Source of the DNA: Rhodopseudomonas pentothenatexigens
GTDB lineage: Bacteria; Pseudomonadota; Alphaproteobacteria; Rhizobiales; Xanthobacteraceae
NCBI RefSeq assembly: GCF_900218015.1
Contig: NZ_UFQQ01000036.1
Location: 1 to 40,767 of the forward strand
Length of the DNA stretch: 40,767 bases
Direction: 5' to 3'
In this document: positions 1 to 40,451 of the stretch, piece after piece
Layout of the letters: every line of letters starts with the position of its first letter
Numbering within the stretch: position 1 is the stretch's first letter
Position numbers and translations under genes: made by a program
Notes under the pieces: generated by a model
What the model was told of the DNA's origin: nothing
What the model saw: the letters and a program-made list of their open reading frames with translations, nothing else
The model's database searches: none

Positions 1-3000
1 CCCATCGCGACGCCGCCGACGATCTGACCGGTGGCGCTGTTGAACAGGCTGTCGGCATAGCTGCCGACCAGATTGATCGCCTCGTTGCCGCGCAGGTCGA
101 ACCGCGCCGCATCCTCGGGGGAGACCCCTTCCGGACCGTTGCCGTCGCCCTTGATCAGGCCGTGGTTGGTGATGGTCGTCACCCCCAGCGCGTTGGCGTT
201 GCTGGAGTTGTCGACCTGGATCGCACGGCCGTAGCCGTAGATCTCGCCGCCGGCATTGTTGACGATGCTGCCGCCGCCGATCGCGATCGCTTCGGAGACG
301 TTCGGCTCGCCGTCGTGATAGCCCTCGGCGCCGAGACCCGAGATCTTGCCGTAGTTCACGACCTGCACCAGACCGTCGACATCGATGGCGTCGCCGTCGC
401 TGTCGGTCAGTTCGGCCGAGCGGCCTTCCATCACGCCGTAGTTGGTGATGAACGCCTTCTGCGCTTCGGTTCCGTCGGTATCGAGGTTCACCGCCGAGCC
501 GTTGCGACCGATCATGGTGCCGCGGTTGACCACGGTGACCGCGTAGTCACCGGTCACCGCGTGGCGCGCACCCTCCAGCAGACCGCCGGCGTAGTTGTTG
601 ACGCTGCCGCCGGTGTCGCTCTGGAAGTCGATCAGGTCGCCGCCGCCGACGAAGGAGGCGTCGGTGGTGATCGTGCCCCAGTTGTTGACGACGCCGTCGA
701 CGCCCGGACGGATGACGTCGGTGTTGCTGCCGACCTGGCGGATGACACCGCCGGCCAGGTTGTTGATCACCGCCGAAGCGCCGTTTGCGTCGAAGCTGCG
801 GAAGTCGAGCACGCGGCCGTTGGCTTCGATCACGCCGGCATTGTTGACCACGATGCTGGCGTCGGCGTGGCCGGCCTGCTGCGGGGTCACCGCACCGCGA
901 ATGACGCCGCCCGCGAGGTTGTTGACGGCCAGCGAACCCGTCGCGCCGGCGGTGGTGGTCAGGGCACGGCTGGAACCTTCGATCTCGCCGGCGTTGTCGA
1001 CCACCGCGTCGCCGCCGCCCTGCCAGACGATGGCGTTACCGGTGACCGCAAGGGTACCGCCGGCTTCGATCGCCACCTGGTCGTCGTTGTCGACGATCAG
1101 GCTGGAGGTCAGGGTCGCGTCGGTCTCGATGGTGATGGCCGAATACGTGGCCGAACCGTCGACCGACCAGGTGCCTTCCGCCACCTGCAGGTTCTCGACG
1201 TTGATGGTCGAGGGCAGCTCGCTGCTGCCGCCGCCGATCAGCCGGACGGTATCGTTGCCGGCACCGCCGTCGATCAGCGCCGGGGCGCCGTCTTCGGTGG
1301 AGACGATGATCAGGTCGTCGCCGTCGCCGCCGTCCGCGGTGTCGCCCTCACCCACCGTGAGCTCGTCGTTGCCGTCGCCGGCTTCGAGCGTGTCGTAGCC
1401 GTCGCCGCCCACCAGGATGTCGTCGCCGGCGCCACCGCGCAGGGTGTCGTCGCCGTCGCCGCCGAGCAGGGTGTCGTCGCCGGCCTCGCCGTCGAGTTCG
1501 TCGTCGCCCTCGCCGCCGTCGAGCTGGTCGTCACCGGCGCCGCCGAGCAGCACGTCGTCGCCCTCGCCGCCGTCGAGCCGGTCGTCGCCGCCAAGGCCGA
1601 CGAGACGATCGTCGCCGCCGAGGCCGGTGAGCTCGTCGTCACCCAGCGCACCGGTGAGTTCGTTGTCGTCGTCGTCGCCGACCAGAACCACCGACTCGAC
1701 ATCGAGGACGGTGTCCTCGCGATAGTCGAGGTTCTGGATGCGCTCGTCATGCGCCCGATCGGTGTCCGCCACGTCGTAGGGCGTGTCGGAGTATTTCGCC
1801 GCGAGATATTCGGCGAAGGCGTCCTGTTCGGTGCCCTCGGCGGCGAAGTTGGCGACCTGGCCGGCGTCCGGAACCAGGTCCGGCGTCAGGTTGACGACGT
1901 TGGCGAAGGCCGGATCGGCAGCGATGAAGCTGGCGAACGGGTAGCCGTCGCCGCCGGTGAGCAGGAAGCTCAGCGTGACCACGCGGATCGCCATGTTCGG
2001 ATCGACCACCAGCTCGCCATTGGCGACCAGCGCCAACACCGGGTTGCCGTTCTCGTCGATCAGCGCCGCCGACTGGACGCGATTGCCGGCCGGATTGTCG
2101 ATGTCGAACGAGTAGGAGATGCCGCCGAGCTGAGCGAACTGGCCCGGGGTGGCGGTCGCGGTGGTGGCCTTCACCGCGTGCTCCAGCACTTCGAGGAGCT
2201 GCGACGCGGTGACCGTGACCAGGGACAGCGCGTTGTTGAAGCGCAGTGAGTTGGCGATGTCGAGCTGCGAGATGTCGCCTTCCTGCTTGCCGACGCCGGG
2301 GTTGGCCGCCGGCGGGTTCTCCACCGCGGTGTCACCGACCGCATAGACGTTGCCGATCGAGTCGCGGATGCCGCCGCCGTTCTTGATCGACACCAGCACG
2401 GTGCCGTCGACCTTCTGCGCGTACCAGAGGTTGGCGTCCGCCGTGAGGTTGCCGAGATTGGTTTCCTCGGTGCGCACCTCGCCGCGGCGGCCTTCCAGAT
2501 ACACGCTGGTGCTGCCGAACAGATTGCCGTCCTGGGCCTCGATCACGTCGCCCACCGCCTGCGCGATGTCGTCGACCAGATCGCCCCTGCCGCCTTCCGC
2601 GAACGGATTGGCGTCGTCGGCGTCGACGTCGCCGTCATTGTCGACGTCGACGGTGGTGTTGCCCTGATACAGCGAGTCGACCACCTCGTCGGTGCTCGCG
2701 TAGGCGCCGTTGACGGCCTTGTTCTCGGTGTAGATCACGTTGCCTTCAGCGTCGAAATCCACCACCAGCCGGCCGACATAGGAGTATTCGCCGGAGGTGT
2801 TGACGATCAGCGTGGTGTTGCCGTCGGCGTTGGCGGTGACGATCGGGTAGGTGCCGCCGGCGGTGTCGCCCGGCGCCAGCACGTCGGTGTCGTCGGCGAG
2901 CAGCGTGTGCGAGCCGCCGGCGATGATGACGTCGACGCCGTGCAGCAGCGGCGCCAGTTCCTGTTCGAACGAGAGCTGCTGCAGATGGCTGACCAGGATG

Positions 3001-6000
3001 ATCTTGTTGATGCCCTGGGCCAGCAGTTCGTCGATGGTCGGCTGCAGGATGGCCGCGAGCGCCGCCATGTCGTTGACGTCGTCACCGATCACGTCGATGC
3101 CGCCGGTCGAGGAGATGCTCTCGACGATCTGGGTGGTGGCGCCGACCACGCCGATCTTCTCGCCGCCTTCCTCGATGATGGTGGCGGGCGCGATCTTCTT
3201 GCCGATGCCGGCCGCCGGCGGGAAGCCGGTGTAGTTGGCCGCGTCCTGGATCGTGCCGGTGTAGAGCCCCGACAGGTTGGAGTCGCCCGAGAAGTTCAGG
3301 TTGGCCGAGAGGTAGGGGAACTGCGCGCCGGGGAAGCTCGCGGTCTGACGGATGATCGCCGCGAACGGATTGGTGCCGGCGTCGAACTCGTGGTTGCCGA
3401 TCGCCGACGCCTGAACGCCGATGATGTTCAGCATCGAGATGTCGGCGGTGCCGAAGCCCGGCGAGATGTTCAGCGAGCCCGGCGTGAGCCCGTAGTAGGT
3501 CTCCAGCGCGGTCTCGTAGACTTCCTTCAGCGACGCGTCGCTGCCGGCGTTGAAGAACGGGCTCGGGATGAAATTGTCGCCCGACGACAACGTGATCGAG
3601 TTCTCGTAGGTGTCCTCCAGATAGTCGACGATGGCGGCGAAATTGCCGGCGCGGTCGACGGCGTTGAGGCCGGCCTCGAAGTCCGAAGCGTGCAGGATCT
3701 GCAGCGTGTAGGCGGCCGCCGGCTCGTCTTCGCCGAGGTTGAGGCCGACGATCACCGGATCATGGTCGGACACCCGGACGGCCTCGTCGCCGTCGAAGAT
3801 CGAGGTGTCGCGGCCGTAGTCGGTGTTGTAGTCGAGCGCATCGGCCTCGTCGGCGTTGATGTGCCAGGTGGTGACGCCGGACACCTGAGAGCCGAGGCTG
3901 CCGTTGGCAAAGGCGTAGTCGAGCGTGCCGGTCTGACCGTCGAACACGTAGGAGTAGGCGCCCTCCTCGCGGTTCTGCAGGTTCTCGTAGCCGGCGCCCT
4001 CGATGATCGCCGTGGACTGCTCCTTGGCGTAGCCGTTGAAGTCGCCGAGCAGCATCACGTCCGGATCGCCGGAGCCGGTCGGATCGCTCGCCGCCCAGGC
4101 GGTCAGAGCGGTGGCGGCAAGCTCGCGCTGGTTCTGCCAGTTGCCCTGACCGTCGCCCTGGTCGGCGTCGGCGCCCGAGCCGGTGCCGCTCTTCGACTTG
4201 AGGTGGTTGGCGATCGCCGTGAAGGTCTCGCCGGTGGCGACTTCTTCGAACGTCACCGCCAGCGCGTTACGGCTGGTGTTCTCGCCGTCGAACACGGCGC
4301 CGACCGTGCTCTGGCTGAGCAGGCCCGAAAGGCCGAGGCCGGGAAGGTCGGCGTCGTTGAGGATCTCGACCGTGGTGCCGTCGGCGATCTTGACCGCCGT
4401 GGTGTTGTAGATGAAGCCCACCGCGATGGCGTCGCCGCCGACGAAACGTTGGCCGGGATCGACCCAGGCATAGGTGCCGGCACCGACCGCGGCGTTCAGT
4501 TGCGCCACCAGATGCTCGATCGCGTTGCCGGAAGACCCAGCCAGGAAATCGTTCTCCAGTTCGGTCAGGGCCAGCACGTCGACGTCCATGTCGAGGATGG
4601 TTTCGACCAGCTTGGCGGTCTGGCGCGCCAGTTCGGTCGCGTTATCGGCGCCGCGGGGGTCGGCACCGATCGCGGTGGTGGCGGAGCCGACATCCAGCGT
4701 CGTGAAGTAGTTCAGCACGTTGAAGCTCGCCACCTTGAGGCGACCGCCGACGTCCGCCGGCTCCTCGGTCCGCGCCGGCGCGGTGTCGTCGAAAGTGTTG
4801 GTGCCGTCCTCGACGGAGCGGATCCGCCAGGTCGCGCCCGAGGCGGAATTGCCGGCCCACTGATAGTCGAGCACGCCGGTCAGCCCGGTGATGGTGTCGC
4901 CCATCCGCGGCGCAGTCTCGGTGTTGTAGACCGGGCCGAAGCCGTCGAGATTGCTGATCGGCTCGTTCTGGGTGTTGAGACCGTCGTCATAGGTGATGGT
5001 GCGGGCGCCGAGTTCGGCCAGATAGGCCTGATACGCCGCGGCGTCCGGCGCGTTCTCCTGGGTGAACTGCGCCGGGCGGTCGCCGGCCACCAGCTTGATC
5101 TCGTTGAAGCGATCGAGATTGTACTGCTCGGTGATGGTCAGGGTCTGCGGAATGGTGACCAGCATGCCCTCATAAGCTTCCAGATCGGGCTGGTAGTCGC
5201 CGTCCTGGCTCAGCGTGGTTCCCGCCGACGGCAGATCGATCTGCACCGCCATGGTGTTGATGTCGGCCACCGCGCCGGCTTCGACGATCGAGATGCTGCT
5301 CGCGGTCAGCTCGGTCAGGCCGAAATATTCGCTGACGGAGCCGGTCACCCGCACCTTGTCGCCGATCTGGACGTCGGTCGAGCCGCCGTAGACGAAGATC
5401 GCTTCCGAGGTCAGGACGTTGCCGTCCGAATCGGTGATTTCTTCCTGCACGTAGAAGCCGTTCAGGTTTCGGCCGGTGTCGCTGTCGCCGTTCTGGAAGT
5501 CGCCGACCACGATCGCCTCCACCGTCACGGTCTGGCCGACCATCGTGCTGCTGGCGCCTTCGCCCTGGATGGTGCTGATCTTGGTGATGCCGACGTCGTC
5601 ATTGACGATCACGCCGGTGGCCTGGGAGGAACCGCCGATGGTGGTGGTCACCGCCGCGGAGTTCGACACGGTGTCGAGCGTCAGCGTGAAGCTCTCGTCC
5701 GGCTCGTTGCTGGTGTCGCCGGCCACCGTGATGGTGACGGTGGCAGTGGTCTGTCCTTCGGCGATCGTTCCGGAGAAGCCCGCCGGCGTCCCGCCGACAT
5801 AGTCCGACGCATTGGTCTGCGACGAGGCGAAGGTGCCCGAGAACGACACGTCGCCGACGGTGCCCCCGCTGCGCTCCACCGTGAAGGTATAGACGGTGGG
5901 GCCGGCGTCGCCTTCGTCCTGAGAGACCGAGGTCGAGCCCGGCACAAAGCCGACGGTCTGTCCCTCGACCGGCGTGTCCGGCTCGCTGGTCACCTTGATG

Positions 6001-6611
6001 TCGTCGATGCCGACCCACTCGTCGTTGCCGCCGGCGTTGGTGGTCATAATACGGACCTGCAGGTCACTGTGGCCGTTGACCTCGGCGGGAAGCAGCAGAT
6101 CGAACGGCGTCACCTGGGTCGCGCTGCCCTGGGTGGTCACGTCCGCAGCATAGCCGCCGGACACGTTGGTCCAGGTGCCGGAGGATCCGAAGCGATACTG
6201 CACGTTGATCTGCTGGGCGGCGTTGTCGGTGCTGGCGTCGAGGTCGCGGACATTGAACGAAACCCGGACGTCCTCCCGGCCGGAGGCGTCGAGATACAGC
6301 ACCAGGCTCGGCGCGTCGGCGGTGCCCGAGCCGTTCAGCGCGATGGTCGGGTTGGCGATGTCGAATTCGGCGACGCCGCCGTTGGTCAGGGTGTTCGGAG
6401 CAGTCGCGTTGGCGATCACGTCGACTGCGCCGAGGGCCGCGCCGGTCAGCGTCCGCGGGTCGACATTGGTCGGCGAGGCGCCGTTGATGTCGCCAAGATA
6501 GCCCATGATCGACGGCACATTGTTCCAATTGTCGTCGGCGGTGATCAGACCTTTGTTGGTCCAATCCTGCAGGAGGTCGCCGTTCGCCAGGACATGATAG
6601 GTCGTCGACAT
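1..6611 (-). CDS. Giant secreted nuclease / 5'-nucleotidase with RTX repeats (C-terminus outside window)
   Basis: The minus-strand frame stays open from an ATG at 6609-6611 to the window edge (about 2,203 codons). No N-terminal signal peptide is seen, as expected for type I secretion. Approximate order: residues 1-200 unassigned; 210-340 Calx-beta-like; 340-480 OB-like; 620-960 endonuclease/exonuclease/phosphatase of the ExeM/NucH type (FNVLNYF, TELEND, LGDFNG, SDHDPV); 965-1500 UshA-type 5'-nucleotidase (SGDNF, GNHEFDAG, GGSHTLL, GGGIRDS); 1640-1740 RTX nonapeptide-type repeats (GGxGDDxLxG); 1850 to the edge, about ten N-x-x-G repeats. Family knowledge says the two catalytic parts cut nucleic acid and dephosphorylate nucleotides outside the cell. 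The divergent exporter genes and candidate Pho boxes support phosphate scavenging from DNA (inference). The usual DxH metal motif of the nucleotidase reads SDFEAG here. Domain calls are from motifs only. Confidence 0.88.
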   Translation of the reverse strand, partial: MSTTYHVLANGDLLQDWTNKGLITADDNWNNVPSIMGYLGDINGASPTNVDPRTLTGAALGAVDVIANATAPNTLTNGGVAEFDIANPTIALNGSGTADAPSLVLYLDASGREDVRVSFNVRDLDASTDNAAQQINVQYRFGSSGTWTNVSGGYAADVTTQGSATQVTPFDLLLPAEVNGHSDLQVRIMTTNAGGNDEWVGIDDIKVTSEPDTPVEGQTVGFVPGSTSVSQDEGDAGPTVYTFTVERSGGTVGDVSFSGTFASSQTNASDYVGGTPAGFSGTIAEGQTTATVTITVAGDTSNEPDESFTLTLDTVSNSAAVTTTIGGSSQATGVIVNDDVGITKISTIQGEGASSTMVGQTVTVEAIVVGDFQNGDSDTGRNLNGFYVQEEITDSDGNVLTSEAIFVYGGSTDVQIGDKVRVTGSVSEYFGLTELTASSISIVEAGAVADINTMAVQIDLPSAGTTLSQDGDYQPDLEAYEGMLVTIPQTLTITEQYNLDRFNEIKLVAGDRPAQFTQENAPDAAAYQAYLAELGARTITYDDGLNTQNEPISNLDGFGPVYNTETAPRMGDTITGLTGVLDYQWAGNSASGATWRIRSVEDGTNTFDDTAPARTEEPADVGGRLKVASFNVLNYFTTLDVGSATTAIGADPRGADNATELARQTAKLVETILDMDVDVLALTELENDFLAGSSGNAIEHLVAQLNAAVGAGTYAWVDPGQRFVGGDAIAVGFIYNTTAVKIADGTTVEILNDADLPGLGLSGLLSQSTVGAVFDGENTSRNALAVTFEEVATGETFTAIANHLKSKSGTGSGADADQGDGQGNWQNQRELAATALTAWAASDPTGSGDPDVMLLGDFNGYAKEQSTAIIEGAGYENLQNREEGAYSYVFDGQTGTLDYAFANGSLGSQVSGVTTWHINADEADALDYNTDYGRDTSIFDGDEAVRVSDHDPVIVGLNLGEDEPAAAYTLQILHASDFEAGLNAVDRAGNFAAIVDYLEDTYENSITLSSGDNFIPSPFFNAGSDASLKEVYETALETYYGLTPGSLNISPGFGTADISMLNIIGVQASAIGNHEFDAGTNPFAAIIRQTASFPGAQFPYLSANLNFSGDSNLSGLYTGTIQDAANYTGFPPAAGIGKKIAPATIIEEGGEKIGVVGATTQIVESISSTGGIDVIGDDVNDMAALAAILQPTIDELLAQGINKIILVSHLQQLSFEQELAPLLHGVDVIIAGGSHTLLADDTDVLAPGDTAGGTYPIVTANADGNTTLIVNTSGEYSYVGRLVVDFDAEGNVIYTENKAVNGAYASTDEVVDSLYQGNTTVDVDNDGDVDADDANPFAEGGRGDLVDDIAQAVGDVIEAQDGNLFGSTSVYLEGRRGEVRTEETNLGNLTADANLWYAQKVDGTVLVSIKNGGGIRDSIGNVYAVGDTAVENPPAANPGVGKQEGDISQLDIANSLRFNNALSLVTVTASQLLEVLEHAVKATTATATPGQFAQLGGISYSFDIDNPAGNRVQSAALIDENGNPVLALVANGELVVDPNMAIRVVTLSFLLTGGDGYPFASFIAADPAFANVVNLTPDLVPDAGQVANFAAEGTEQDAFAEYLAAKYSDTPYDVADTDRAHDERIQNLDYREDTVLDVESVVLVGDDDDNELTGALGDDELTGLGGDDRLVGLGGDDRLDGGEGDDVLLGGAGDDQLDGGEGDDELDGEAGDDTLLGGDGDDTLRGGAGDDILVGGDGYDTLEAGDGNDELTVGEGDTADGGDGDDLIIVSTEDGAPALIDGGAGNDTVRLIGGGSSELPSTINVENLQVAEGTWSVDGSATYSAITIETDATLTSSLIVDNDDQVAIEAGGTLAVTGNAIVWQGGGDAVVDNAGEIEGSSRALTTTAGATGSLAVNNLAGGVIRGAVTPQQAGHADASIVVNNAGVIEANGRVLDFRSFDANGASAVINNLAGGVIRQVGSNTDVIRPGVDGVVNNWGTITTDASFVGGGDLIDFQSDTGGSVNNYAGGLLEGARHAVTGDYAVTVVNRGTMIGRNGSAVNLDTDGTEAQKAFITNYGVMEGRSAELTDSDGDAIDVDGLVQVVNYGKISGLGAEGYHDGEPNVSEAIAIGGGSIVNNAGGEIYGYGRAIQVDNSSNANALGVTTITNHGLIKGDGNGPEGVSPEDAARFDLRGNEAINLVGSYADSLFNSATGQIVGGVAM

Positions 6612-6853
6612 CGATTGCCACTCCAATGATCGGGGGATGGACGTCGAGCGCCGTCGACGCGCATGGCGCGACGGGCCCGAACGGCCGTGGTTAACGAGCT
6701 GTTAATGTCGGCATCTAGGACGTGAACGCTAACAATTGGGTGACTGGATCTTAACGTTGGAATGAAAGGTCGGGACCGACAGCCATATCCCCGGCCGCGC
6801 GGAACTGACGATGAAGCGCTGTTCCAGAACAGCGCCGTGCCCCGGCGTCGCGT

Positions 6854-7045: not shown

Positions 7046-7113
7046 TTATCGTCGATAACAAACCCCGCACGGCTCTGATCATGGCGATCCGCCGCTCGTT
7101 TCGATTGGAAATC

Positions 7114-8895
7114 ATGACCGTCCCGACGCCGTCCCAACAGGCTGCGACAAAGCCGCGCGATCTAACGACCGTTGCAATCGCCTCCTGCCGCAACGCCTTT
7201 ATTGCGGTCGGGCTGTTCTCGGCCGTGATCAACCTGCTGATGCTGGCCGGCCCGATCTACATGTTACAGGTGTATGATCGCGTCATCCCGTCACGGAGCA
7301 TCCCTACGCTGATCGCGTTGTCGATCGCGGTCGCGGCTTGCTATGCGCTGCAGGGTTTGTTCGATTCCTTGAGGCAGCGCATCCTGACCCGGATCGGTGC
7401 GGCTCTGCATATCGCACTGTGGCAGCCGGTCGTCGCCACCATTCTGCGCGGGCCGCTGCGCGGCGGTGCGGGCAATCGCGGCTCGCAACTGTCGCACGAT
7501 CTCGACTCCGTCCGTTCGTTTCTGTCCGGGCTCGGTCCGACCACGCTGTTCGATCTGCCGTGGATGCCGCTGTATCTCGCCGGTTGCTTCCTGCTCCACC
7601 CGTATCTCGGCTGGACGCTGGTCGCCGGTGCAGTGCTGTTGTTCGGAATCGCGCTGGTCACCGAACTGCTCACCCGGGAGCCGACGCGCGAGGCGTCTCG
7701 CAGCGGCGCGGCGCGCGGCGTTCAGCTCGAAGCCGGGCGACGGAATGCGGAAATCGTCGCCGCGCTCGGGATGGAGCGACGTCTGATCGAGCGGATCGGC
7801 GCCGCCAACGACGAGCATATCGCCGCGCAACAGCGCAATGCCGATATCGCAGGATCGCTCGGCGCGCTGTCGAAGACGCTGCGCTTCATGCTGCAATCGG
7901 CGCTGCTCGGCCTCGGCGCATATCTGGTGATCGAAGGCGAGGCCAGCAGCGGCGTGATGATCGCGGCCTCGATCATGGGCAGCCGCGCGCTCGCCCCGGT
8001 CGAACTCGCGATCTCGATCTGGAGGCCGTTTCTCGGCGCACGGCAGGCATGGCAGCGGCTGCGGGCCGCGCTCGGCAGCGGCGATGCTCCCGCCTCGGCG
8101 GTGGCGCCGGAACCCGCGACACAGCGGCTGACGGTCGAGCAGGTCTTCGTCGCTGCACCCGGCAGCGGCACGCCGATCGTGCAGAACGCCACCTTCAAGC
8201 TGGAAGCCGGCCAAGCGCTCGGCGTGATCGGGCCGTCCGCCGCGGGCAAGTCGACCCTGGCGCGGGCGCTGGTCGGGATCTGGCCGGTCGGCCGCGGCGA
8301 GCTCCGGCTCGACGGCGCGACGCTCGATCAATGGCCGGCGGATATCCGTGGCGGCATGATCGGCTATCTGCCGCAGGACGTCGAGTTGTTCGACGGCACG
8401 GTGGCGGAGAACATCGCCAGGTTCGATCCGGAGATCGACGATCAGGCGGTGATCGCCGCCGCCAAGGCCGCCGGTGCCTACGACATGATCCTCAAATTGC
8501 CGAAGGGGTTCGAGATGCGGGTCGGCGAAGCCGGCGCGACGCTCTCCGGCGGACAGCGCCAGCGGATCGCGCTGGCACGCGCGCTGTACAAGGATCCGTT
8601 CATGGTGGTGCTCGACGAGCCGAATGCCAGCCTCGACGCCGAGGGCGACGCCGCGCTGACCGAAGCGATCCGGCGCGTGCGCGCCCGCGGCGGCATCGCG
8701 ATCATCGTCGCGCATCGGCCGGCGGCGCTGGCCGCCGTCGACCTCGTGCTCACCCTCGCCAATGGGCAGGTGCAGGCGTTCGGACCGAAGGACGAGGTGC
8801 TGCGCAAGACTTTGGCCGGCCATCCGGTGCCCGGCGCCGTTCCGCTGCAGGCCGTGCCCGACGCCCGCATGGCACCGGCGGCAGCCGTGAGCTGA
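7114..8895 (+). CDS. prtD: Type I secretion ABC transporter, permease/ATPase (PrtD family)
   Basis: Inner-membrane exporter of a type I secretion system, energising passage of an unfolded substrate through an HlyD adaptor and an outer-membrane TolC-type channel (family knowledge). Five to six hydrophobic segments occupy about residues 25-280. The ATPase domain shows Walker A GPSAAGKST (near 373), signature LSGGQRQRIAL (near 477), Walker B VVLDEP (near 500) and the switch histidine in VAHRP. Its 593 residues fit PrtD-type exporters without an N-terminal peptidase domain, matching a C-terminally recognised RTX substrate. An in-frame ATG at 7081 would add 11 residues; 7114 is preferred because GGAA precedes it and the conserved N-terminus starts soon after. 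It is ten bases from the adaptor gene and divergent from the giant RTX protein, its probable cargo. No TolC-like gene is present in the window. Confidence 0.92.
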   Translation: MTVPTPSQQAATKPRDLTTVAIASCRNAFIAVGLFSAVINLLMLAGPIYMLQVYDRVIPSRSIPTLIALSIAVAACYALQGLFDSLRQRILTRIGAALHIALWQPVVATILRGPLRGGAGNRGSQLSHDLDSVRSFLSGLGPTTLFDLPWMPLYLAGCFLLHPYLGWTLVAGAVLLFGIALVTELLTREPTREASRSGAARGVQLEAGRRNAEIVAALGMERRLIERIGAANDEHIAAQQRNADIAGSLGALSKTLRFMLQSALLGLGAYLVIEGEASSGVMIAASIMGSRALAPVELAISIWRPFLGARQAWQRLRAALGSGDAPASAVAPEPATQRLTVEQVFVAAPGSGTPIVQNATFKLEAGQALGVIGPSAAGKSTLARALVGIWPVGRGELRLDGATLDQWPADIRGGMIGYLPQDVELFDGTVAENIARFDPEIDDQAVIAAAKAAGAYDMILKLPKGFEMRVGEAGATLSGGQRQRIALARALYKDPFMVVLDEPNASLDAEGDAALTEAIRRVRARGGIAIIVAHRPAALAAVDLVLTLANGQVQAFGPKDEVLRKTLAGHPVPGAVPLQAVPDARMAPAAAVS

Positions 8896-8905
8896 GGACC
8901 TGCGC

Positions 8906-10228
8906 ATGTCTCGATCTCCCGACACCAAGCCGCCCCGCAGCAATCCAGCGCGCGATATCCGCCGCGCGGTGATTGCCGGCGTCGCGACACTGACGCTGGT
9001 GATTTCCACCGCCGGCGTGTGGGCGGTGACCGCGCCTCTCGCCAGCGCGGTGATCGCTCCGGCGCAGGTGGTGGTCGACAGCAACGTGCGGCGCATCCAG
9101 CATCCGACCGGCGGCGTGGTCGCCGAGATCTACGTCAATGACGGCGATCAGGTCCGCGCCGGCGACATTCTGGTGCGGCTCGACGAGACGCTGCCGCGCG
9201 CCAATCTGGCGCTGATCGAAAACCAGCTCAATCAGCTCACGGCGCGGCGCGCCCGGCTGCAGGCCGAACAGAGCGGACGAGACGCCCTGGTGCTGCCTCC
9301 GGAGATTCTCGCACGCCGCGACGTCGCGGTGATCGCCGAAATGATCGACGGTGAAACCACGCTGTTCGCCCGGCGCCGCGAGGCGATCAGCGGCCAGCAG
9401 TCGCAATTGCGCGAACGCAAAGCGCAGATCGCCGACGAAATCCGCGGCCTCGAAGCCCAGATCGCGTCGAAGCGCGAGCAGGTCCGCTGGATCCAGACCG
9501 AGCTCGACGGCGTCCGGCAGCTTTATGAGAAGAATCTCGTGCCCTATGCGCGCCTCACCGCGCTGGAACGTGAGGCCTCCCGGCTCACAGGCGAGGACGG
9601 GCAACTGATCGCCGAAATCGCGCGCGCGAAGGGCCGGATCACCGAGACCGAATTGCAGATCATCCAGCTGGTTCAGGATCAGCGCCGTGAGGTGGCGACC
9701 GAGCTGCGCGAGGTCGAAACCAAGCTCGCCGATCTCGGTGAGCGCCGCATCGCGGCGATGGATCAGCTCGAGCGCGTGGTGCTGCGCGCCCCGCAGGATG
9801 GTCTGGTCCACCAGAAATCAGTCCACACGGTCGGCGGAGTGATCACCGCCGGCGAGCAACTGATGCTGATTGTGCCCAAGGACGCGCTGGTGGTCGAGGC
9901 CCGGGTCGAACCGCAGATGATCGATCGACTGAGGGTCGGGCAATCCGCCAAGCTGCGTTTCAGCGCGTTCGACTCCGCGGTCACGCCCGAGCTCGACGGG
10001 ACATTGACGCGGATCGCCGCCGACCTGACCAAAGACCAGCAAACCGGTGCGGCGTACTACGTGGCCCGGATCAGCCTCGCCGCGACCGAACTGGCCAAGC
10101 TCGAAGGCAAGGCGCTGGTGCCGGGCATGCCGGTCGAAGCCTTCATCCAGAACGGCGTCAGGACAGCATTCGCCTATCTGCGCAAGCCGCTGGAAGACCA
10201 ACTCGCCCGCGCACTGCGTCAGAAATAG
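8906..10228 (+). CDS. prtE: Type I secretion membrane fusion protein (HlyD/PrtE family)
   Basis: Periplasmic adaptor joining the ABC exporter to the outer-membrane channel. It has a short cytoplasmic N-terminus, one membrane helix at about residues 26-46, a biotinyl-lipoyl-like half (GGVVAEIYVNDGDQV, near 65-80), a long charged coiled-coil hairpin (about 95-290) and a second lipoyl/beta-barrel part (VLRAPQDGLV, then VEARVEPQMIDRL). This order and the 440-residue length are standard for the HlyD/PrtE family. It is probably cotranscribed with the exporter (10 bases apart). A stem-forming sequence lies just after the stop codon. Confidence 0.92.
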   Translation: MSRSPDTKPPRSNPARDIRRAVIAGVATLTLVISTAGVWAVTAPLASAVIAPAQVVVDSNVRRIQHPTGGVVAEIYVNDGDQVRAGDILVRLDETLPRANLALIENQLNQLTARRARLQAEQSGRDALVLPPEILARRDVAVIAEMIDGETTLFARRREAISGQQSQLRERKAQIADEIRGLEAQIASKREQVRWIQTELDGVRQLYEKNLVPYARLTALEREASRLTGEDGQLIAEIARAKGRITETELQIIQLVQDQRREVATELREVETKLADLGERRIAAMDQLERVVLRAPQDGLVHQKSVHTVGGVITAGEQLMLIVPKDALVVEARVEPQMIDRLRVGQSAKLRFSAFDSAVTPELDGTLTRIAADLTKDQQTGAAYYVARISLAATELAKLEGKALVPGMPVEAFIQNGVRTAFAYLRKPLEDQLARALRQK

Positions 10229-20819: not shown

Positions 20820-21161
20820 TTACGCCGCCGGCCAGAACACCGTCAGCCACACCGTCGCCTCATCGGCGGCGGTGGCCTCGACCCGGTGGCGGCAGTGGGC
20901 GGGGATGTCGACCCAGCTGCCGGGGACGAGGTCGACGGTGCGGTCGCCGTCTTCGAACCGCAGCACGGCGGCGCCGGCCAGCAGCACCACGAACTCGTCC
21001 TCTGTCTGATCGTACCAGAACCCGTCCGGGCTCGACTGGCCGAACGAGACGATGCGCTCGACGCGGACGCCGCCGCGGGCCAGCAGGGTGTCCAGCACTT
21101 CGTCGGGGCCGGCAGGCGGCAGCGGGTGCAGCAGATGTCCGTGCGGTGCGTCCATGATCAT
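20820..21161 (-). CDS. Small single-domain cupin protein
   Basis: A 113-residue protein with one cupin fold: motif 1 around DGFWYDQTEDEFVVLLAGAAVL (in part) and motif 2 GSWVDIPAHCRHRVEAT. Motif 1 has E..E in place of the classical HxH; motif 2 keeps a histidine (AHCRHRV), so metal binding may be altered. The family often acts in phosphomannose isomerase-like or sensing roles; no specific function can be assigned. Two ATGs, at 21161 and 21155, are possible starts. It is divergent from the FabH-like gene, about 290 bases away. Confidence 0.85.
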   Translation of the reverse strand: MIMDAPHGHLLHPLPPAGPDEVLDTLLARGGVRVERIVSFGQSSPDGFWYDQTEDEFVVLLAGAAVLRFEDGDRTVDLVPGSWVDIPAHCRHRVEATAADEATVWLTVFWPAA

Positions 21162-21452
21162 GATCCTCGGCGCGGAATTTGGCCCCGATCGGCGCCGGCC
21201 GCTATCCGTCTTGCGATCGAGCTTGTGTTTCGCCGCGCGGCGTTTCATACCGCTTTTGCCCGCGCCGGCCGAGATGCCCGCGCGCCCCGCCCGCCGGCCT
21301 CCCCGCGCCCGACCAACGGACGATGCGGCCGCGTTCCGCCTTTTGTCCGGCGTCAAAGCCGACCCGGACGAAACGGCGTCGGATACCGGCAGGGCGCGGC
21401 GGATCGCTTGGCCGGCGGTCCTCTCACTCAGCCACTGAGCCTGGAGCTTTCC

Positions 21453-22568
21453 GTGCGCCCTGCCGTCATTGCCGCGACCGGCCTCTACACCCCGCCCGAC
21501 AGCGTTTCGAACGCGGAGCTGGTCGAGGCGTTCAACACCTATGTGGCGAACTTCAACGCGGCCAACACAGCGCGCATCGAAGCCGGCGAGATCGAGCCGC
21601 TGCAGCCGTCGTCGTCCGAATTCATCGAGAAGGCCTCGGGCATCAAGTCGCGCTACGTGGTGGCCAAGCCGGGGATCGTCGATCCGGAAGTGATGCGCCC
21701 GATCATTCCGGAGCGCTCCAACGACGAATTGTCGATCCTCGCCGAGATGGCGGTGACCGCGGCCGAGCAGGCGATCGAACGCTGGGGCAAGCCGCGCGAG
21801 CGGATCGGCGCGGTGCTGTGCGCCTGCTCCAACATGCAGCGCGCGTACCCTGCGATGGCGATCGAGGTGCAGAATGCGCTCGGCCTCGGCGGCTTCGCGT
21901 TCGACATGAACGTCGCCTGCTCGTCGGCGACCTTCGGGCTGAAGACCGCGGCGGATTTCGTCGGCGGCGGCTCGGTCGATGCGGTGCTGATGGTCAATCC
22001 GGAGATCTGCTCCGGCCATCTCAACTTCCGCGACCGCGACAGTCACTTCATCTTCGGCGACGTCGCCACCGCGGCGATCGTCGAGCGCGCCGACGATGCG
22101 CAAGGCGGCTGGTCGATCCTCGGCACCAGGCTGAAGACGCAGTTCTCCAACAACATCCGCAACAACGCCGGCTTCCTCAACCGCGCCTGGCCCGAGGGCC
22201 GCGACAACGTCGACAAGCTGTTCGTGCAGCAGGGCCGCAAGGTGTTCAAGGAAGTGGTGCCGCTGGTGTCGGAGATGATCATCGAGCACGCCCGCGAGAT
22301 CGGCATCGATCCGCACAGCCTGAAGCGGATGTGGCTGCACCAGGCCAACATCAACATGAACGAGATCATCGGCCGCAAAGTTTTGGGCCGCGATCCGACG
22401 CGGGACGAGAACGTCATCATCCTCGACGACTATGCCAACACCTCGTCGGCCGGCTCGATCATCGCCTTCCACAAGCACCAGGATGACATGGCGCCAGGCG
22501 ACCTCGGCCTGATCTGCTCGTTCGGCGCCGGCTACTCGGCCGGCACGGTGTTCGTGCAGAAGCGGTAA
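21453..22568 (+). CDS. Beta-ketoacyl-ACP synthase III-like (FabH family)
   Basis: A 371-residue thiolase-fold condensing enzyme. The catalytic triad is visible: cysteine in NVACSSATFG, histidine in MWLHQANINMN and asparagine in DDYANTSSAGS. The insert VAKPGIVDPEVMRP near the N-terminus and length somewhat above the ~320 of housekeeping FabH place it in a FabH-related subgroup that may use non-acetyl primers. Family role: condense an acyl-CoA with malonyl-ACP to start fatty-acid synthesis. The start is GTG at 21453 with GGAG eight bases upstream; the open frame extends far upstream but is not family-like there. The following SDR could belong to the same pathway, though a repeat separates them. 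Confidence 0.92.
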   Translation: MRPAVIAATGLYTPPDSVSNAELVEAFNTYVANFNAANTARIEAGEIEPLQPSSSEFIEKASGIKSRYVVAKPGIVDPEVMRPIIPERSNDELSILAEMAVTAAEQAIERWGKPRERIGAVLCACSNMQRAYPAMAIEVQNALGLGGFAFDMNVACSSATFGLKTAADFVGGGSVDAVLMVNPEICSGHLNFRDRDSHFIFGDVATAAIVERADDAQGGWSILGTRLKTQFSNNIRNNAGFLNRAWPEGRDNVDKLFVQQGRKVFKEVVPLVSEMIIEHAREIGIDPHSLKRMWLHQANINMNEIIGRKVLGRDPTRDENVIILDDYANTSSAGSIIAFHKHQDDMAPGDLGLICSFGAGYSAGTVFVQKR

Positions 22569-22590
22569 CGATCTCACCTCGCCATCTTCC

Positions 22591-22676
22591 CGTCCTTGCA
22601 AGGCGCGAAGCGACGAAGCAATCCAAAGCCAGGTGCAAGGCACCGCTGGATGGCTTGGCTTCGCTCGCAATGACGA
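22591..22676. repeat. Dispersed palindromic repeat
   Basis: The arms GCGAAGCGACGAAGCAATCCA (first part) and TGGATGGCTTGGCTTCGCTCGC are near inverted copies with CAAGGC elements between. I recognise this as a repeat type common between genes in Bradyrhizobium and Rhodopseudomonas (memory, not searched). Confidence 0.55.
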
Positions 22677-35609: not shown

Positions 35610-36014
35610 TCAGCCGGAAAACGCCTCCGGCTGGTAGCGCCCCGTCTCGATGCGCGGCAGCCGCGCCACGTCCCAATTGAAATAGTACACGAACGCGTCG
35701 AGCTCGGTGCCGCCCTCCAGCGTCACCCGGGCGATCTCGCGCCGGTATTCGGCGCGCTGATCCGACGGGCCACAACCTTCGTAATCGTCGAGCTGCGCCA
35801 ATATCTCGTCCGGCCGATGCAGCCGGAACACCTCTCCGTACACGCGATCGGCGGCATCGTCGGACGGCACCAGGCCGGGATAGTGCCGCACCAGATACAG
35901 CCGGCCCGGGATCGAGGCCGGGCCGAGAAATTCGGCATTCGACGATAGCAGCCGGGCCATCGGATGATCGTAGCCACGCATCAGCGTGCCATAAACGAAC
36001 AGACGGTCGAACAT
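35610..36014 (-). CDS. Gamma-glutamylcyclotransferase-like protein (AIG2/GGCT fold)
   Basis: A 134-residue protein of the GGCT-like fold. The signature YGTLMRG binds substrate near the N-terminus, and the acid/base glutamate is in LDDYEG. YYFNWDVARLP near the C-terminus is also typical. Related enzymes release 5-oxoproline from gamma-glutamyl amines or peptides; which substrate is used cannot be read. The ATG at 36014 has GAGG about ten bases upstream. Gene is divergent from the radical SAM gene and does not seem part of its pathway. Confidence 0.9.
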   Translation of the reverse strand: MFDRLFVYGTLMRGYDHPMARLLSSNAEFLGPASIPGRLYLVRHYPGLVPSDDAADRVYGEVFRLHRPDEILAQLDDYEGCGPSDQRAEYRREIARVTLEGGTELDAFVYYFNWDVARLPRIETGRYQPEAFSG

Positions 36015-36253
36015 TTCAATTTACCTCAGCAAACCAGCCGCCTCCGCGACCTCCCCTCGATTACCACAACCGCGGCAAAACTAGACCATCGATCTAGGCA
36101 GGACACCAAGCGCGTGATTGAGGGTGCGCAGCGCTCGTGTTAGCGTCCGCATCGGTTGAATTAGTTTATACTTGTTACGTGTTCGAGATTGGGCAGGACA
36201 CGTTTCAAACACACACCGGCCGCGACCAGTCCTTTGCTGCACTGGAGACCGCG

Positions 36254-37567
36254 ATGAAGCCGTCTCAATTCAACGTCTGGACGCAACTCGGCGATGGCGT
36301 TCATCTGCTCTACAACACCCGGAGCAACGCGCTTCTGCGGCTATCGGCCGAGCTGAAGCGTAAGGCCGAAAGCCATCTTGCGCGCCCGGACGCGACCGGC
36401 AGTGACGACCTGGCGCGTCAGCTCGTCACGCTCGGCTTCATGATCGACGACGCTGCCGACGAACTGGCGCTGCTGAAGACCGCGGAGCGCACTCAACGGT
36501 TCGACGGCCGCCGGCTCGGCCTGACGATCTGCACCACGCTCGCTTGCAATCTGCGTTGCATCTATTGCTATCAGAAAAAAGACAGCGCGCTGATGAGCCA
36601 GGACGTTCAGTCCAAGATCGTCGACTATGTCGACTCACGGACCCCCGGCCTCGCAGCACTGTCCGTAGTGTATTTCGGTGGCGAACCTCTGGTCGGGCTG
36701 TCGGTGATCGAATCGCTGGCGCAGAAATTTCAAGGCCTGGCCGCCGCCAGGGGCTTCAACTACTCCGCGGCGGCCATCACCAACGGATACCTTTTAACCG
36801 AAGACACCGCGAAACAGTTGAGCGCCTGTGGCGTCCGTTCGGTGCAAGTCACGCTCGACGGCCCGCAACGCATTCACGATCAGCGCCGCCCGCAGCGCAA
36901 CGGGAAGGGTAGCTACGATCGCATTCTCGAAAATCTGCAACGAGTCGTGGGCCGGATGGAAGCGGTCTCGCTGCGCGTCAACATCGACAAGGGCAACGCG
37001 GATGCGGTGCCCGAGCTCCTGACCGATCTCGACGCAGCCGGGCTGCGCGGCAAGGTCAACGTGTATTTCGGACTGGTCGACAACGCCACCGAATCGTGCC
37101 GCGACTACGGCTGCAATTGCTTCAGCAAGGAGCAATTCGCAAGCGAATCGCTAAAGCTACAATTGACGGCACTCCGCCACGGCTTCGTCGTCGACAACTA
37201 TCCCGGCGGCGGAATGGGCTGCGGCGCGACCTCGGCAAGCGCTTATGTCGTTGCGCCCGACGGGCGGCTGTTCAAATGTTATAACCATACGGGTGTCGAT
37301 GGTAGCGAAGTCGGGCACATCTCCGGCGAACTCGACCAGATCCGGCTGAGCCGATGGCTCGCCTACGACCCGTTCGACTATCCGAAATGCAAAGCCTGCG
37401 ACAAGCTTCCGTTGTGCCTCGGCTCGTGCCCTGCGAGCGCGGTCGAGACCGGCGAACCGGAATGTCCCTCCATCGCCTTCGGTTTGCACGACACCTTGAA
37501 GATGGAGCTCCTGAATCGCCGATTCAGAGAGATGCAACGTCTGTCCAACGAAGCGAGGACGACATGA
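36254..37567 (+). CDS. Radical SAM/SPASM peptide maturase
   Basis: A 437-residue radical SAM enzyme. The [4Fe-4S] SAM cluster ligands are in CNLRCIYC (near residues 98-105), with YFGGEP and a TNGYLL strand typical of the SPASM class. The C-terminal SPASM region has cysteines at GMGCG, LFKCYN and in KCKACDKLPLCLGSC, then PECPS, for auxiliary clusters. The N-terminal 90 residues resemble the substrate-recognition part of sulfatase- and peptide-maturing relatives. ATG at 36254 is preferred: GGAG precedes it; the open frame from 36137 adds unrelated sequence. It overlaps the Cys-rich peptide gene by four bases (ATGA), so the pair is translationally coupled and the peptide is the likely substrate (inference). 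Thioether formation is a possible reaction. Confidence 0.93.
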   Translation: MKPSQFNVWTQLGDGVHLLYNTRSNALLRLSAELKRKAESHLARPDATGSDDLARQLVTLGFMIDDAADELALLKTAERTQRFDGRRLGLTICTTLACNLRCIYCYQKKDSALMSQDVQSKIVDYVDSRTPGLAALSVVYFGGEPLVGLSVIESLAQKFQGLAAARGFNYSAAAITNGYLLTEDTAKQLSACGVRSVQVTLDGPQRIHDQRRPQRNGKGSYDRILENLQRVVGRMEAVSLRVNIDKGNADAVPELLTDLDAAGLRGKVNVYFGLVDNATESCRDYGCNCFSKEQFASESLKLQLTALRHGFVVDNYPGGGMGCGATSASAYVVAPDGRLFKCYNHTGVDGSEVGHISGELDQIRLSRWLAYDPFDYPKCKACDKLPLCLGSCPASAVETGEPECPSIAFGLHDTLKMELLNRRFREMQRLSNEARTT

Positions 37568-37896
37568 GCGCCGACCAGGACAAGAAGATGATCGAAATGC
37601 TGCAGCAAATGCAGATCGACATCGAGAAGAGCACCCGAGGATCGCTCGAAAGCAAGGGCATCCAGCTCGATCCGGATATGGAAATCCTGCACTGGGAGGA
37701 AGGTAAGCGCAACCTGATCGAAGCAGGTCCATGCGCGAGCCAGGAGAACTGCGACGATCGCTGTAAGCCAAACGTCGTGATCTGCGCGACCCGGCTCGCG
37801 TGCGAGGCGTTGCACGTCTGCGGCTATCGATGTCGTAACGTGGCCGACCCTTGCGCCAATCGAATCTGCCACAGCCAGCCGGTCGATCCGCGCTGA
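37564..37896 (+). CDS. Cysteine-rich precursor peptide of the radical SAM maturase
   Basis: A 110-residue protein. Residues 1-52 are a charged, cysteine-free leader-like part with amphipathic helix character (KKMIEMLQQMQIDIEKS). Residues 57-102 hold nine cysteines (57, 63, 67, 74, 80, 86, 90, 97, 102) in two 23-residue repeats that share C-x5-C-x2-R-C-x6-C-A-x-R. No known family is recognised; there is no signal peptide. Its ATG overlaps the maturase stop codon (ATGA). This fits a RiPP precursor modified on cysteine, but a metal-binding or disulfide-rich protein cannot be excluded. It was easily missed because a longer frame starts at 37354 inside the maturase. Confidence 0.82.
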   Translation: MSADQDKKMIEMLQQMQIDIEKSTRGSLESKGIQLDPDMEILHWEEGKRNLIEAGPCASQENCDDRCKPNVVICATRLACEALHVCGYRCRNVADPCANRICHSQPVDPR

Positions 37897-37971
37897 GCCG
37901 GAGCGCGGCCTCCCGCACGATAAGCGCAATCCGACGAGGGGTGGACGAGCGGCAAAGCCGCCGGTGACGGC

Positions 37972-39498
37972 ATGGGTGATTTGAGCACGACAAACGACCA
38001 CCCGCTGATCACCGCGGCGCCGTTTTTTGCGTTCAGCGTCACGCACGAATTCTCCGCCCCCGTCGATCTCCGGCACGACGACGACACCAAGCAAGATCCC
38101 GATCTTCGCCGGATGGAGACGGCGCCGACGGCGGACTTGCACGACGTGATTGGAGGGTTCGTCGACCGCACCACGACCGCGAGGTCCGGCGAGATGCTGT
38201 TGCGGTCGATTCGCACTGCGATTCCCGACAAGTGCCTGCGCGATCGTTTCGATCGGCTGTTCCGTCATCAGGACGCCTGGCTGCACGATAGCATCGCCTG
38301 GGCGCTCAGCCGCGATCGCACACTGCGAAAGGCGATCGCGCAGGAAGCGCTGATCCCGCTGCGGCCCCCGAACCACGCCGCCTTTGCCGGCGCCTCCCAC
38401 CCGGCTGGATTGTCGGCACCGCTCAAGCTCGGCTATCTGCTCTATCAGGAGCGCAAATGCGGCGGCGCCCCGGAGCGCTATGCCGCACAGGCCGAGGCCA
38501 TCAGCCCGGCCTGCAGCCGCAGCGCCGAGCGGCTGAGCCGCCTCCTGGAGGAAGCCGAACGATGGTACGCCGAGGTGCTCGCCTTCGTCGTATACGAACC
38601 GTGGATCGCAGGCGATCACGGCCGCGGCGCGACCCTGGCCGAGGCGCTTTCCGAGGTATTTCCGGCCGCGGCGGAGATGCCCCCGTTTCAATTGGTGGTC
38701 GACGCGTGCGGCGCGCCGGATGCTTATGTCGCCGAGGGCTATGCAGCGGTGCTCGTCGATGCCGCTGTGCGGGGCGACAATGACGCCGGCCGCGCTTGGC
38801 TCGGCGCCGCTTCGGCCGTGCAGAAGCAGCAGATCCTCACCGGGCTCGACCTGCGGCTGCGCGGCTTGACCGACAGGATCGAGCCAGGGCTGAGACTCCA
38901 GGATTGGCGCGAAATGTTCCGGTCAGGCGTGATTCACGCCAGCAATTCGATCCGCTTCGACATCGGCAATTCCATCGCCAGCCTGCCGGAAATCGCCCTG
39001 CACGAGATGTCGCATCTCGCTTACGCCCAGATGCGACCGCCGGTTCGAACAATGGTCGACGACCGCGGCACGCCGTTGCTGACACGGCGGATCGACCGCA
39101 GTCTCGACGAAGGCCTCGCCGAATTGTTTTCCGGCGCGGCACTGCGTCGCCTCGCGGGACACTATCCGCTGGTCACGGCCTATCGACGGCTCCGTTTCGC
39201 GCTGCTGCGGGGCCGTCGCAATGACCCCCATATTGGCGGGTTTGCGGTGTTGAAGCGCTACTGCGCTGACCGGCCGATCCCCGATGCGGCTGAATTGCTG
39301 AGACGCGTCAACGCCGCGGATCACGACCTGATCCGGTTGCTCGATACCCCGGGCGAACACCCTTCGCCGGCAAGCACCATCGAGGGCCCGATCGCGGCGG
39401 TTCCGGAAGTGCAAATCGCGATCGGCGCCGCGCCAGAGCTGACCTCGCTCGGTTTTCGGCGGCATTGGTGCACGCTGGCGATCCGCGGAAACCACTGA
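37972..39498 (+). CDS. HExxH-motif zinc-metalloprotease-like protein of the radical SAM locus
   Basis: A 508-residue protein without signal peptide or membrane helix. The motif HEMSH (344-348) in IALHEMSHLAYAQM, plus a downstream glutamate (about 380) in SLDEGLAELFSG, matches the gluzincin zinc-site arrangement. The first 300 residues are helical and unassigned. It lies 75 bases after the Cys-rich peptide gene and same strand; a plausible task is leader removal from the modified peptide (inference). The N-terminus has a putative propeptide-like region (FAFSVTHEF). The ATG at 37972 has GGTGACGGC upstream, which is weak, so the start is uncertain. No known protease family is recognised. Confidence 0.8.
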   Translation: MGDLSTTNDHPLITAAPFFAFSVTHEFSAPVDLRHDDDTKQDPDLRRMETAPTADLHDVIGGFVDRTTTARSGEMLLRSIRTAIPDKCLRDRFDRLFRHQDAWLHDSIAWALSRDRTLRKAIAQEALIPLRPPNHAAFAGASHPAGLSAPLKLGYLLYQERKCGGAPERYAAQAEAISPACSRSAERLSRLLEEAERWYAEVLAFVVYEPWIAGDHGRGATLAEALSEVFPAAAEMPPFQLVVDACGAPDAYVAEGYAAVLVDAAVRGDNDAGRAWLGAASAVQKQQILTGLDLRLRGLTDRIEPGLRLQDWREMFRSGVIHASNSIRFDIGNSIASLPEIALHEMSHLAYAQMRPPVRTMVDDRGTPLLTRRIDRSLDEGLAELFSGAALRRLAGHYPLVTAYRRLRFALLRGRRNDPHIGGFAVLKRYCADRPIPDAAELLRRVNAADHDLIRLLDTPGEHPSPASTIEGPIAAVPEVQIAIGAAPELTSLGFRRHWCTLAIRGNH

Positions 39499-39653
39499 GC
39501 ATCTCCCGACAGCACGACCGGTCGGCCGTTGGAATGGCCGCCGGCGACTGCAATTTTGTACAGTGTCCGACCATTCGTCTCGACGGCGCGCGGGCGAATC
39601 CGCTACCGATTTGGCGGGGCTCGGACGACGGCGGTCGATAGGCAGGTCTGGTG

Positions 39654-40451
39654 ATGGACGGCGTGCGCGACGATTTCCTCAGCCTCGATGCCGGACAGCC
39701 TCCGGTGATCGAGCGCAATCCAAACGGACGGTCGCCGTTCCTGCTGGTGTGCGACCACTACGGCCGGCGGATCCCGGCGCAGCTCGGCGACCTCGGCCTG
39801 CCCGAGTCCGAGCTGACGCGGCACATCGCCTGGGATGTCGGCATCGCCGGCGTGGTCGAGCGGCTGTCGGACGCGCTTCAGGCCCATCTGATCGCCCAGC
39901 GCTATTCGCGCCTTGTGATCGACTGCAACCGGCCGCCGAGCGCCGAAAGTTCGATTCCGCTGGTCAGCGAGGCGACCACGATTCCCGGCAATGACGGGCT
40001 CACCCGGGAGCAGGCGACGGAGCGGCGCCGGCTGATCTTCGATCCGTACCACCAGCGGATCGAGGCCGCGATCGAGGACCGGCAATTGTCCGGCCAGCCC
40101 ACCGTGCTGCTGGCGCTCCATTCGTTCACGCCGGTGTATCACGGCATGGCGCGGCCCTGGCACATCGGCACGCTGTATCAGGACTGCACCGTGCTGCCGC
40201 CGCTGCTGCTCGGCGAGCTGCGACGCGAGCCCGAACTGGTGGTCGGCGACAACCAGCCCTACGCAGTCGCCGACGGCACCGACTACACCATCCCGGTGCA
40301 CGGCACCGCGCGCGGCCTGATCACCTCCGGCATCGAAATCCGCCAGGACCAGATCACCGACGAAGCCGGCCAGATCGAATGGGCCGCGCGCCTGGAGCGG
40401 GTGCTGGCCGCGATCGCAGACAAGCTGCAGCAGCAGCAGGTGCTATCCTAG
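39654..40451 (+). CDS. N-formylglutamate amidohydrolase-like protein
   Basis: A 265-residue protein matching the N-formylglutamate amidohydrolase (HutG-type) family: LLVCDHYGRRIP near the start, HIAWDVG, VIDCNRPPS, LLALHSFTPVYHG and the C-terminal region with RGLITSGIEIRQD. In the best-studied family members the reaction releases formate from N-formyl-L-glutamate in histidine degradation; other members act on other N-acyl amino acids. Start is ATG at 39654 (GTG at 39651 adjacent). No histidine-utilisation genes are nearby, so the substrate is uncertain. It appears monocistronic, before a dispersed repeat. Confidence 0.9.
   Translation: MDGVRDDFLSLDAGQPPVIERNPNGRSPFLLVCDHYGRRIPAQLGDLGLPESELTRHIAWDVGIAGVVERLSDALQAHLIAQRYSRLVIDCNRPPSAESSIPLVSEATTIPGNDGLTREQATERRRLIFDPYHQRIEAAIEDRQLSGQPTVLLALHSFTPVYHGMARPWHIGTLYQDCTVLPPLLLGELRREPELVVGDNQPYAVADGTDYTIPVHGTARGLITSGIEIRQDQITDEAGQIEWAARLERVLAAIADKLQQQQVLS

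Follow-up and report, generated by a model that had tools for sequence, protein, structure and literature searches.

A strain-specific three-gene cassette of Rhodopseudomonas pentothenatexigens with a radical SAM/SPASM maturase and a probable cysteine-rich peptide substrate

We analysed a stretch of 40,767 nucleotides from Rhodopseudomonas pentothenatexigens (contig NZ_UFQQ01000036.1, positions 1 to 40,767), hereafter the window, which carries a strain-specific cassette of three genes that probably makes a chemically cross-linked, Cys-rich peptide. The genes encode a radical S-adenosylmethionine (SAM) enzyme with SPASM-type cysteines, a polypeptide of 110 residues with nine Cys, and a protein of 508 residues with an HExxH motif (Table 1). 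With a probability of roughly 0.6, we read them as a self-contained pathway to a ribosomally synthesised and post-translationally modified peptide (RiPP), comprising leader binding by the N-terminus of the first protein, radical cross-linking of Cys in the second, and trimming by the third. A first-pass annotation had described a SPASM radical SAM gene that overlaps a short Cys-rich gene by ATGA and is followed by an HExxH-E gene; the coordinates proved exact and the overlap was verified, with the ATG at 37564 and the TGA at 37565 (four bases). The HExxH gene follows after a gap of 75 bases. No publication on this locus was found in a literature search that left subscription papers mostly outside.

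The three genes are delimited by breaks in homology. In the five closest of seven fetched genomes of the same genus, homology ends at 36014 or 36035 and restarts at 39572 or 39579, and the homologous flanks are separated there by 59-90 bp. Thus, an insert of about 3.5 kb carries these three genes. The seven genomes were fetched from 15 other genus genomes with a match to the FGase-family gene on the right flank (39651-40451, PF05013), which all 16 genus genomes searched contain, our own among them; the match in relative G156 (L034) contains one internal TAG. In the two more diverged genomes, whose segments near the site are 72-86% identical, the gap measures 1.0-1.3 kb and holds another open reading frame (ORF), by its look presumably a transglutaminase-type protein. 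No further gene was recognised in the insert, although the family scans did not extend to its antisense ORFs (37157-37993, 37378-38691), no direct repeat pairing the two ends was seen in the repeat lists, and the cassette DNA had no match in plasmids. Between 35900 and 39800, promoter-like sites (1 found, shuffle mean 0.7) and terminator-like sites (4 found versus 2.9) stay within shuffle expectation. Gain of the cassette in this strain is a simpler reading than loss elsewhere. The cassette is also the best evidence that the HExxH gene belongs with the other two genes.

Table 1. Features of the cassette; positions refer to the window.
Feature	Position	Strand	Basis or remark
Strain-specific cassette with all three genes	36036..39571	.	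homology breaks versus relatives
Radical SAM/SPASM-type peptide maturase, 437 aa	36254..37567	+	NCBIfam models, PF04055, CX3CX2C, SPASM-type Cys
N-terminal maturase stretch, possible leader-binding (RRE-like) domain	36254..36508	+	predicted
Cys-rich precursor candidate, 110 aa	37564..37896	+	ATGA overlap with maturase, Cys content, coding GC
Cys-free acidic leader-like half, residues 1-56	37564..37731	+	12 D/E versus 7 K/R
Putative core with nine Cys, 54 residues	37732..37893	+	
HExxH protein, 508 aa, candidate zinc peptidase with no family match	37972..39498	+	motif
HEMSH metal-binding motif, residues 344-348	39001..39015	+	
DEGLAE, residues 379-384	39106..39123	+	final Glu, +40 from first His, candidate third ligand

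The first protein belongs to the radical SAM/SPASM RiPP maturases. It matches the radical SAM domain PF04055 above cut-off and carries the CX3CX2C motif as C98/C102/C105 (36545-36568). Seven further Cys (323, 342, 379, 382, 388, 392 and 404, from 37220 to 37465) follow in what we take to be SPASM-type order; this order, together with homology, points to a SPASM domain. In eight of eight aligned proteins, the CX3CX2C Cys are identical and so are the first six of the SPASM-type Cys; C404 is shared by seven of eight. An alternative GTG start lies at 36137, but the alignment with the relatives starts at the MKxS encoded from ATG 36254. PADLOC gave matches solely to viperin models, on the radical SAM core (E 1e-10 and 5e-8), which were taken as superfamily matches.

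Among the NCBIfam models, the best scores were obtained for TIGR04463 (rSAM_vs_C_rich; 286 bits over residues 6-401, E 4e-85, curated cut-off 525), the Clo7bot maturase TIGR04334 (257 bits over residues 2-420, E 2e-76, cut-off 600), CefB (NF038107; 241 bits, E 2e-71, cut-off 600) and the geopeptide maturase (TIGR04280; 194 bits, E 5e-57, cut-off 400). Lower scores were found for FlmE/OhkG (188 bits), PapB (NF047865; 141 bits, E 5e-41, cut-off 340), QhpD (105), CcpM (99.6), the nif11 maturases (99.4) and SCIFF (96). The SPASM model TIGR04085 is not among the 25 best of the 75 models matched. By these similarities, the maturase is assigned to the TIGR04463/Clo7bot/CefB/geopeptide/PapB clade, a known kind of enzyme.

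Within 296 genomes of the family, 13 contain a match to the maturase at E 1e-40, the own genome included, and the other 12 proteins are 29-38% identical; at E 1e-50 the own genome alone remains among 327 genomes of the class. These genome samples overlap, and at most three to five candidates per genome were scored, as also in the family and phylum searches for the HExxH protein. A genome-contig scan, which requires exact eight-residue matches, returned one relative (36% identical, a WOR-3 metagenome-assembled genome), and a plasmid search returned 34 records, each less than 60% identical. The top sequence match in the PDB is the thioether maturase CteB (5wgg, E 6e-18). Best structural matches of the model, which is weak with a mean predicted local distance difference test (pLDDT) value of 47.6, are likewise CteB entries (5wgg/5why); since superpositions on CteB, ChlB and SkfB have root-mean-square deviations of 13.8-19.3 Å and template modelling scores below 0.45, they are counted as support only. 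The N-terminal stretch aligns across eight relatives and shows a beta-beta-alpha-alpha-alpha order where the pLDDT of the model lies below 50, so that a leader-binding domain is possible. RiPP recognition elements (RREs) of such maturases are documented for CteB and SkfB (PMC8326336).

The 110-codon gene has a position-specific GC content of 0.595/0.414/0.766, which is of coding type and resembles that of the neighbouring genes. As the mechanical ORF in this frame begins at 37354, the start at ATG 37564 is a choice. The nine Cys occupy positions 57, 63, 67, 74, 80, 86, 90, 97 and 102, with the spacing 5,3,6,5,5,3,6,4 that the first-pass annotation had reported, and none falls within residues 1-56. 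Nine Cys within 46 residues are not rare, being found in 3 of 257 mechanical ORFs of the window, the peptide frame included; the case for the peptide therefore rests on coding bias, the maturase overlap and the cassette. A repeat of the spacing 5,3,6, in which four Cys are offset by 23 residues, is weak (P about 0.04 under random placement, 0.12 with shuffled gaps). The peptide had no match in Pfam, NCBIfam, PHROGs or PADLOC. Two of the 296 family genomes gave a match, the own genome and one other (L010, E 4.6e-5, two internal stops); the latter was dismissed as chance, as it runs antisense to a 702-residue ORF that by its look we take to be an elongation factor. We consider it likely that the first two genes encode a RiPP maturase and its precursor, and that the precursor represents a new family.

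An Asp or Glu stands 0-6 positions downstream of six of the nine Cys of the peptide (C57, C63, C74, C80, C90 and C102), and PapB tolerates Cys-Xn-Asp with n = 0 to 6 (PMC9413430); thioethers are therefore possible on the peptide. As E81 would have to serve both C74 and C80, no more than five downstream links could form under the PapB rule, and the remaining Cys would consequently be free, linked to other residues, disulphide-paired or metal-bound. Thioether chemistry at the locus is plausible.

We further examined 19 loci of maturase relatives, comprising one from a related-locus search, six plasmids (of the 34 records) and 12 family genomes; in five of them the sequence extends less than 500 bases past the maturase on one side. 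By eye, 11 of the 19 were judged to carry a small Cys-rich ORF, or a precursor annotated as Cys-rich, near the maturase, namely L056, L057 (identical to L012, L013; removed by the coding filter), L058, L059-L061 (judged from repeats in L015, L017 and L018), L027 (annotated CefA), L026, L029, L030 and L063. Some mechanical ORFs were discarded by eye, e.g., in L065 and in the second rows of L029, L058 and L063. Conservation of the three-gene neighbourhood, which had been suggested as a check, was not observed: a co-directional HExxH ORF of at least 120 codons within 2 kb of the maturase occurs in none of the 19 loci, no coding filter being applied. Such HExxH ORFs lie farther off in three loci, at 2.1 kb (L028, over the annotated cbpB), 3.4 kb (L032) and 4.8 kb (L059), and none of the HExxH ORFs listed at these loci contains [DE]EGxA[DE] within 90 residues.

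Several of the small ORFs at these loci deserve description in their own right. Those at L029 3119-3367, L030 3109-3345 and L063 9474-9704 end in a common C-terminal CDSCTVCPCMICW; in L029 and L030 (Rhizobium, Aminobacter) they immediately precede two successive radical SAM genes, L063 comes from a family genome, and by sequence the three look like a conserved RiPP precursor family. The ORFs L012 1032-1475 (147 residues, 11 Cys) and L014 1798-2229 (143 residues, 10 Cys) contain several CX4C, lie immediately 5' of the maturase and had no NCBIfam match at E 0.1. Stretches within residues 8-27 of our peptide weakly resemble the leaders of these two; the similarity was equalled in fractions of 0.021 and 0.008 of 1000 shuffles for leaders only, and of 0.094 and 0.348 once the full proteins were compared. 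In L015, L017 and L018 (L059, L060 and L061, respectively), TIGR04463-like maturases have nearby ORFs with 31, 27 and 18 Cys and units like CGTDGNV; those of L015 and L018, the two tested, had no NCBIfam model at E 0.1.

The third protein is a candidate zinc peptidase by its HExxH motif and the subsequent DEGLAE. The arrangement HExxH...DEGxAE resembles the gluzincin peptidase pattern. The first-pass annotation had called the protein an HExxH protease; both motifs are indeed present, and a protease role is putative and motif-based, with no counterpart in Pfam, NCBIfam, the PDB or the genomes searched. No family was found in Pfam (pieces retried, E 10), NCBIfam, PHROGs or PADLOC, and the PDB gave chance rows only (E 0.2 and 1.7).

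HExxH peptide oxygenases are now documented in RiPP loci (PMC12636437, PMC13060819), and therefore we tested an oxygenase reading, in which the third protein would be a second tailoring enzyme, dependent on iron and alpha-ketoglutarate, that performs hydroxylation or oxidative cleavage. In its favour, PMC12636437 reports that characterised alpha-ketoglutarate HExxH enzymes act in RiPP loci, that the first of them had carried a metallopeptidase annotation, and that PflC/PosC hydroxylate and cleave. As in the oxygenases of model TIGR04267, the HExxH motif here lies in the last half of the protein, and a profile alignment of 88 columns brings the HExxH motifs and RID...EG near-register with HExxH and RIDPRPMEG of one member (L069); it extends to residue 382, short of the Glu, and serves as a lead only. 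Against this stands the lack of any match to TIGR04267 in the own genome even at E 10. Comparison with five members, drawn from 4 of 200 phylum genomes, gave an hhalign probability of 0.12, and the score was equalled or exceeded by 16 of 150 shuffles with HExxH fixed and by 1 of 10 unrelated HExxH ORFs, whereas leave-one-out controls recovered five of five members at 95.9-99.8% probability. Furthermore, a His invariant in all five aligned members (position +41 of L069, counted from the first His) is replaced here by Glu at +40, a position that, judged by eye, falls slightly past the aligned columns. By the profile test, the protein is thus placed outside the TIGR04267 oxygenases, and we consider an oxygenase of this type quite unlikely.

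Other alternatives concern the polypeptide and the kind of link. Instead of a small secreted peptide, it could be a protein subunit or metal binder that acts inside the cell and is stapled in the manner of QhpD. In favour of this are a match of the maturase to the QhpD model TIGR03906 (E 3.5e-30) and the Cys-Asp and Cys-Glu thioethers that QhpD forms (PMC8326336). A size of about 110 residues and the missing exporter would fit as well. The precursor of the stapled subunit of quinohemoprotein amine dehydrogenase is itself near 110 residues long. This reading appears unlikely to us, as the score is far under the cut-off of 453 bits, the peptide has no Pfam match and the QHNDH domain PF09098 is absent from the own genome (control match in 1 of 14). 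Sactipeptide-type (alpha-carbon) or non-thioether chemistry on the same peptide is distinctly improbable: PapB and CteB, the relatives of characterised chemistry to which the model and PDB matches lead, both make non-alpha thioethers. This argument is weakened by several better-scoring maturase models for which the literature search found no published chemistry; moreover, membership in a sequence clade leaves the acceptor atom undecided, and three of the nine Cys have no acidic residue 0-6 positions downstream. That the 110-residue ORF is no substrate at all, arising by chance or encoding an unrelated Cys-rich protein, would agree with the absence of a credible homologue and with the 3 of 257 comparable ORFs. 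It is very unlikely given the coding-type GC at third codon positions (GC3), the ATGA overlap, the restriction of Cys to the C-terminal half and the cassette shared with the maturase.

A maturase relative on a Methylomagnum plasmid (33.9% identical) adjoins an annotated CefA; unlike in the CefB/CefA Cys-every-fifth systems, the Cys of our peptide do not recur at every fifth position, and the 11-kb Methylomagnum stretch has no HExxH ORF of at least 120 codons, unlike the cassette. From the Clo7bot system, with its similar maturase, the locus differs by a peptide with nine Cys that no NCBIfam model matches. PapB/PapA ranthipeptides share the PapB-like enzyme, a Cys-rich substrate and available acidic acceptors, but the model score is far from its cut-off and the Cys arrangement is another. 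SCIFF (CteB/CteA) provides the best PDB match, but its model TIGR03974 gives 96 of the required 425 bits, and nine Cys in 46 residues are found here versus six in 45.

The following pathway is proposed. The N-terminal domain of the maturase would bind the 110-residue peptide by its first half, which lacks Cys. The radical SAM centre, aided by SPASM iron-sulphur clusters, would then link several of the nine Cys in the second half with residues close by, most likely as thioethers to non-alpha carbons like those made by CteB and PapB. Subsequently, the HExxH protein would remove the leader or trim the product as a zinc peptidase. The proposal draws on the clade of maturases for Cys-rich peptides, CteB as best PDB match, the Cys-rich partners at relatives' loci, the gene overlap, GC3 and the cassette limits.

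Several findings weigh against it. The maturase stays below the curated cut-off in all 25 best of the 75 models matched. No homologue of the peptide was found in the genome-contig scan (22 pattern matches unconfirmed) or in plasmids, its leader similarity is weak and was picked after the fact, and its core has one CX3E (C57-E61) and no CX3D array, unlike PapA. In 8 of the 19 relatives' loci no Cys-rich partner was accepted by eye. For the HExxH protein, no homologue beyond itself appeared in family, phylum or genus genomes, plasmids or phages, and its single-sequence model is unusable (pLDDT 36). Neither the cassette nor the flanking genes, which apart from the FGase gene were named by eye, showed a transporter; no exporter is adjacent. 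The RiPP reading stays ahead because the genes share one cassette and Cys-rich partners are frequent in the clade. The first-pass annotation had taken a lack of precursor homologues beside SPASM genes as refuting its reading, and no credible homologue was found; the peptide is an orphan rather than a disproved precursor. Of the new RiPP class it had proposed, a SPASM RiPP-type maturase beside a Cys-rich precursor-like ORF within one cassette is supported, whereas a new peptide class stays conjectural, as the enzyme falls in a known clade.

The absence of a nearby transporter, also noted earlier, holds for the cassette and its flanks; about 26 kb away, at 7081-10228 (+), an HlyD-family gene comes after an ABC transporter gene (PF00664, PF00005) in the window, and the two may form a type I export pair. 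The long ORFs ahead of this pair (162-2249, 2907-6629) had no Pfam family at E 0.001. In another ORF, 20820-22670 (-), residues 506-613 match the Nif11/cupin model TIGR03890 (88 bits, cut-off 159), and Cupin_2 is slightly below cut-off. Rfam gave a single match for the window, a tRNA at 11774.

A more far-reaching reading is tentative and on balance somewhat doubtful: a horizontally gained, self-contained pathway in which a polypeptide from a new precursor family, densely stapled through its nine Cys, is served by a dedicated zincin of a new family, either a leader peptidase or an oxidative tailoring enzyme sharing peptidase fold descent. The cassette is a good lead rather than a surprise, being one orphan locus whose maturase falls in a known clade. 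If this reading is true, it would add a new precursor family and a new zincin family to radical SAM peptide chemistry, and the system, pared down to three genes, could be moved to E. coli. The pair of HExxH...Glu and HExxH...His in peptide pathways could then be used to ask what sets peptidases apart from oxygenases that carry the same motif.

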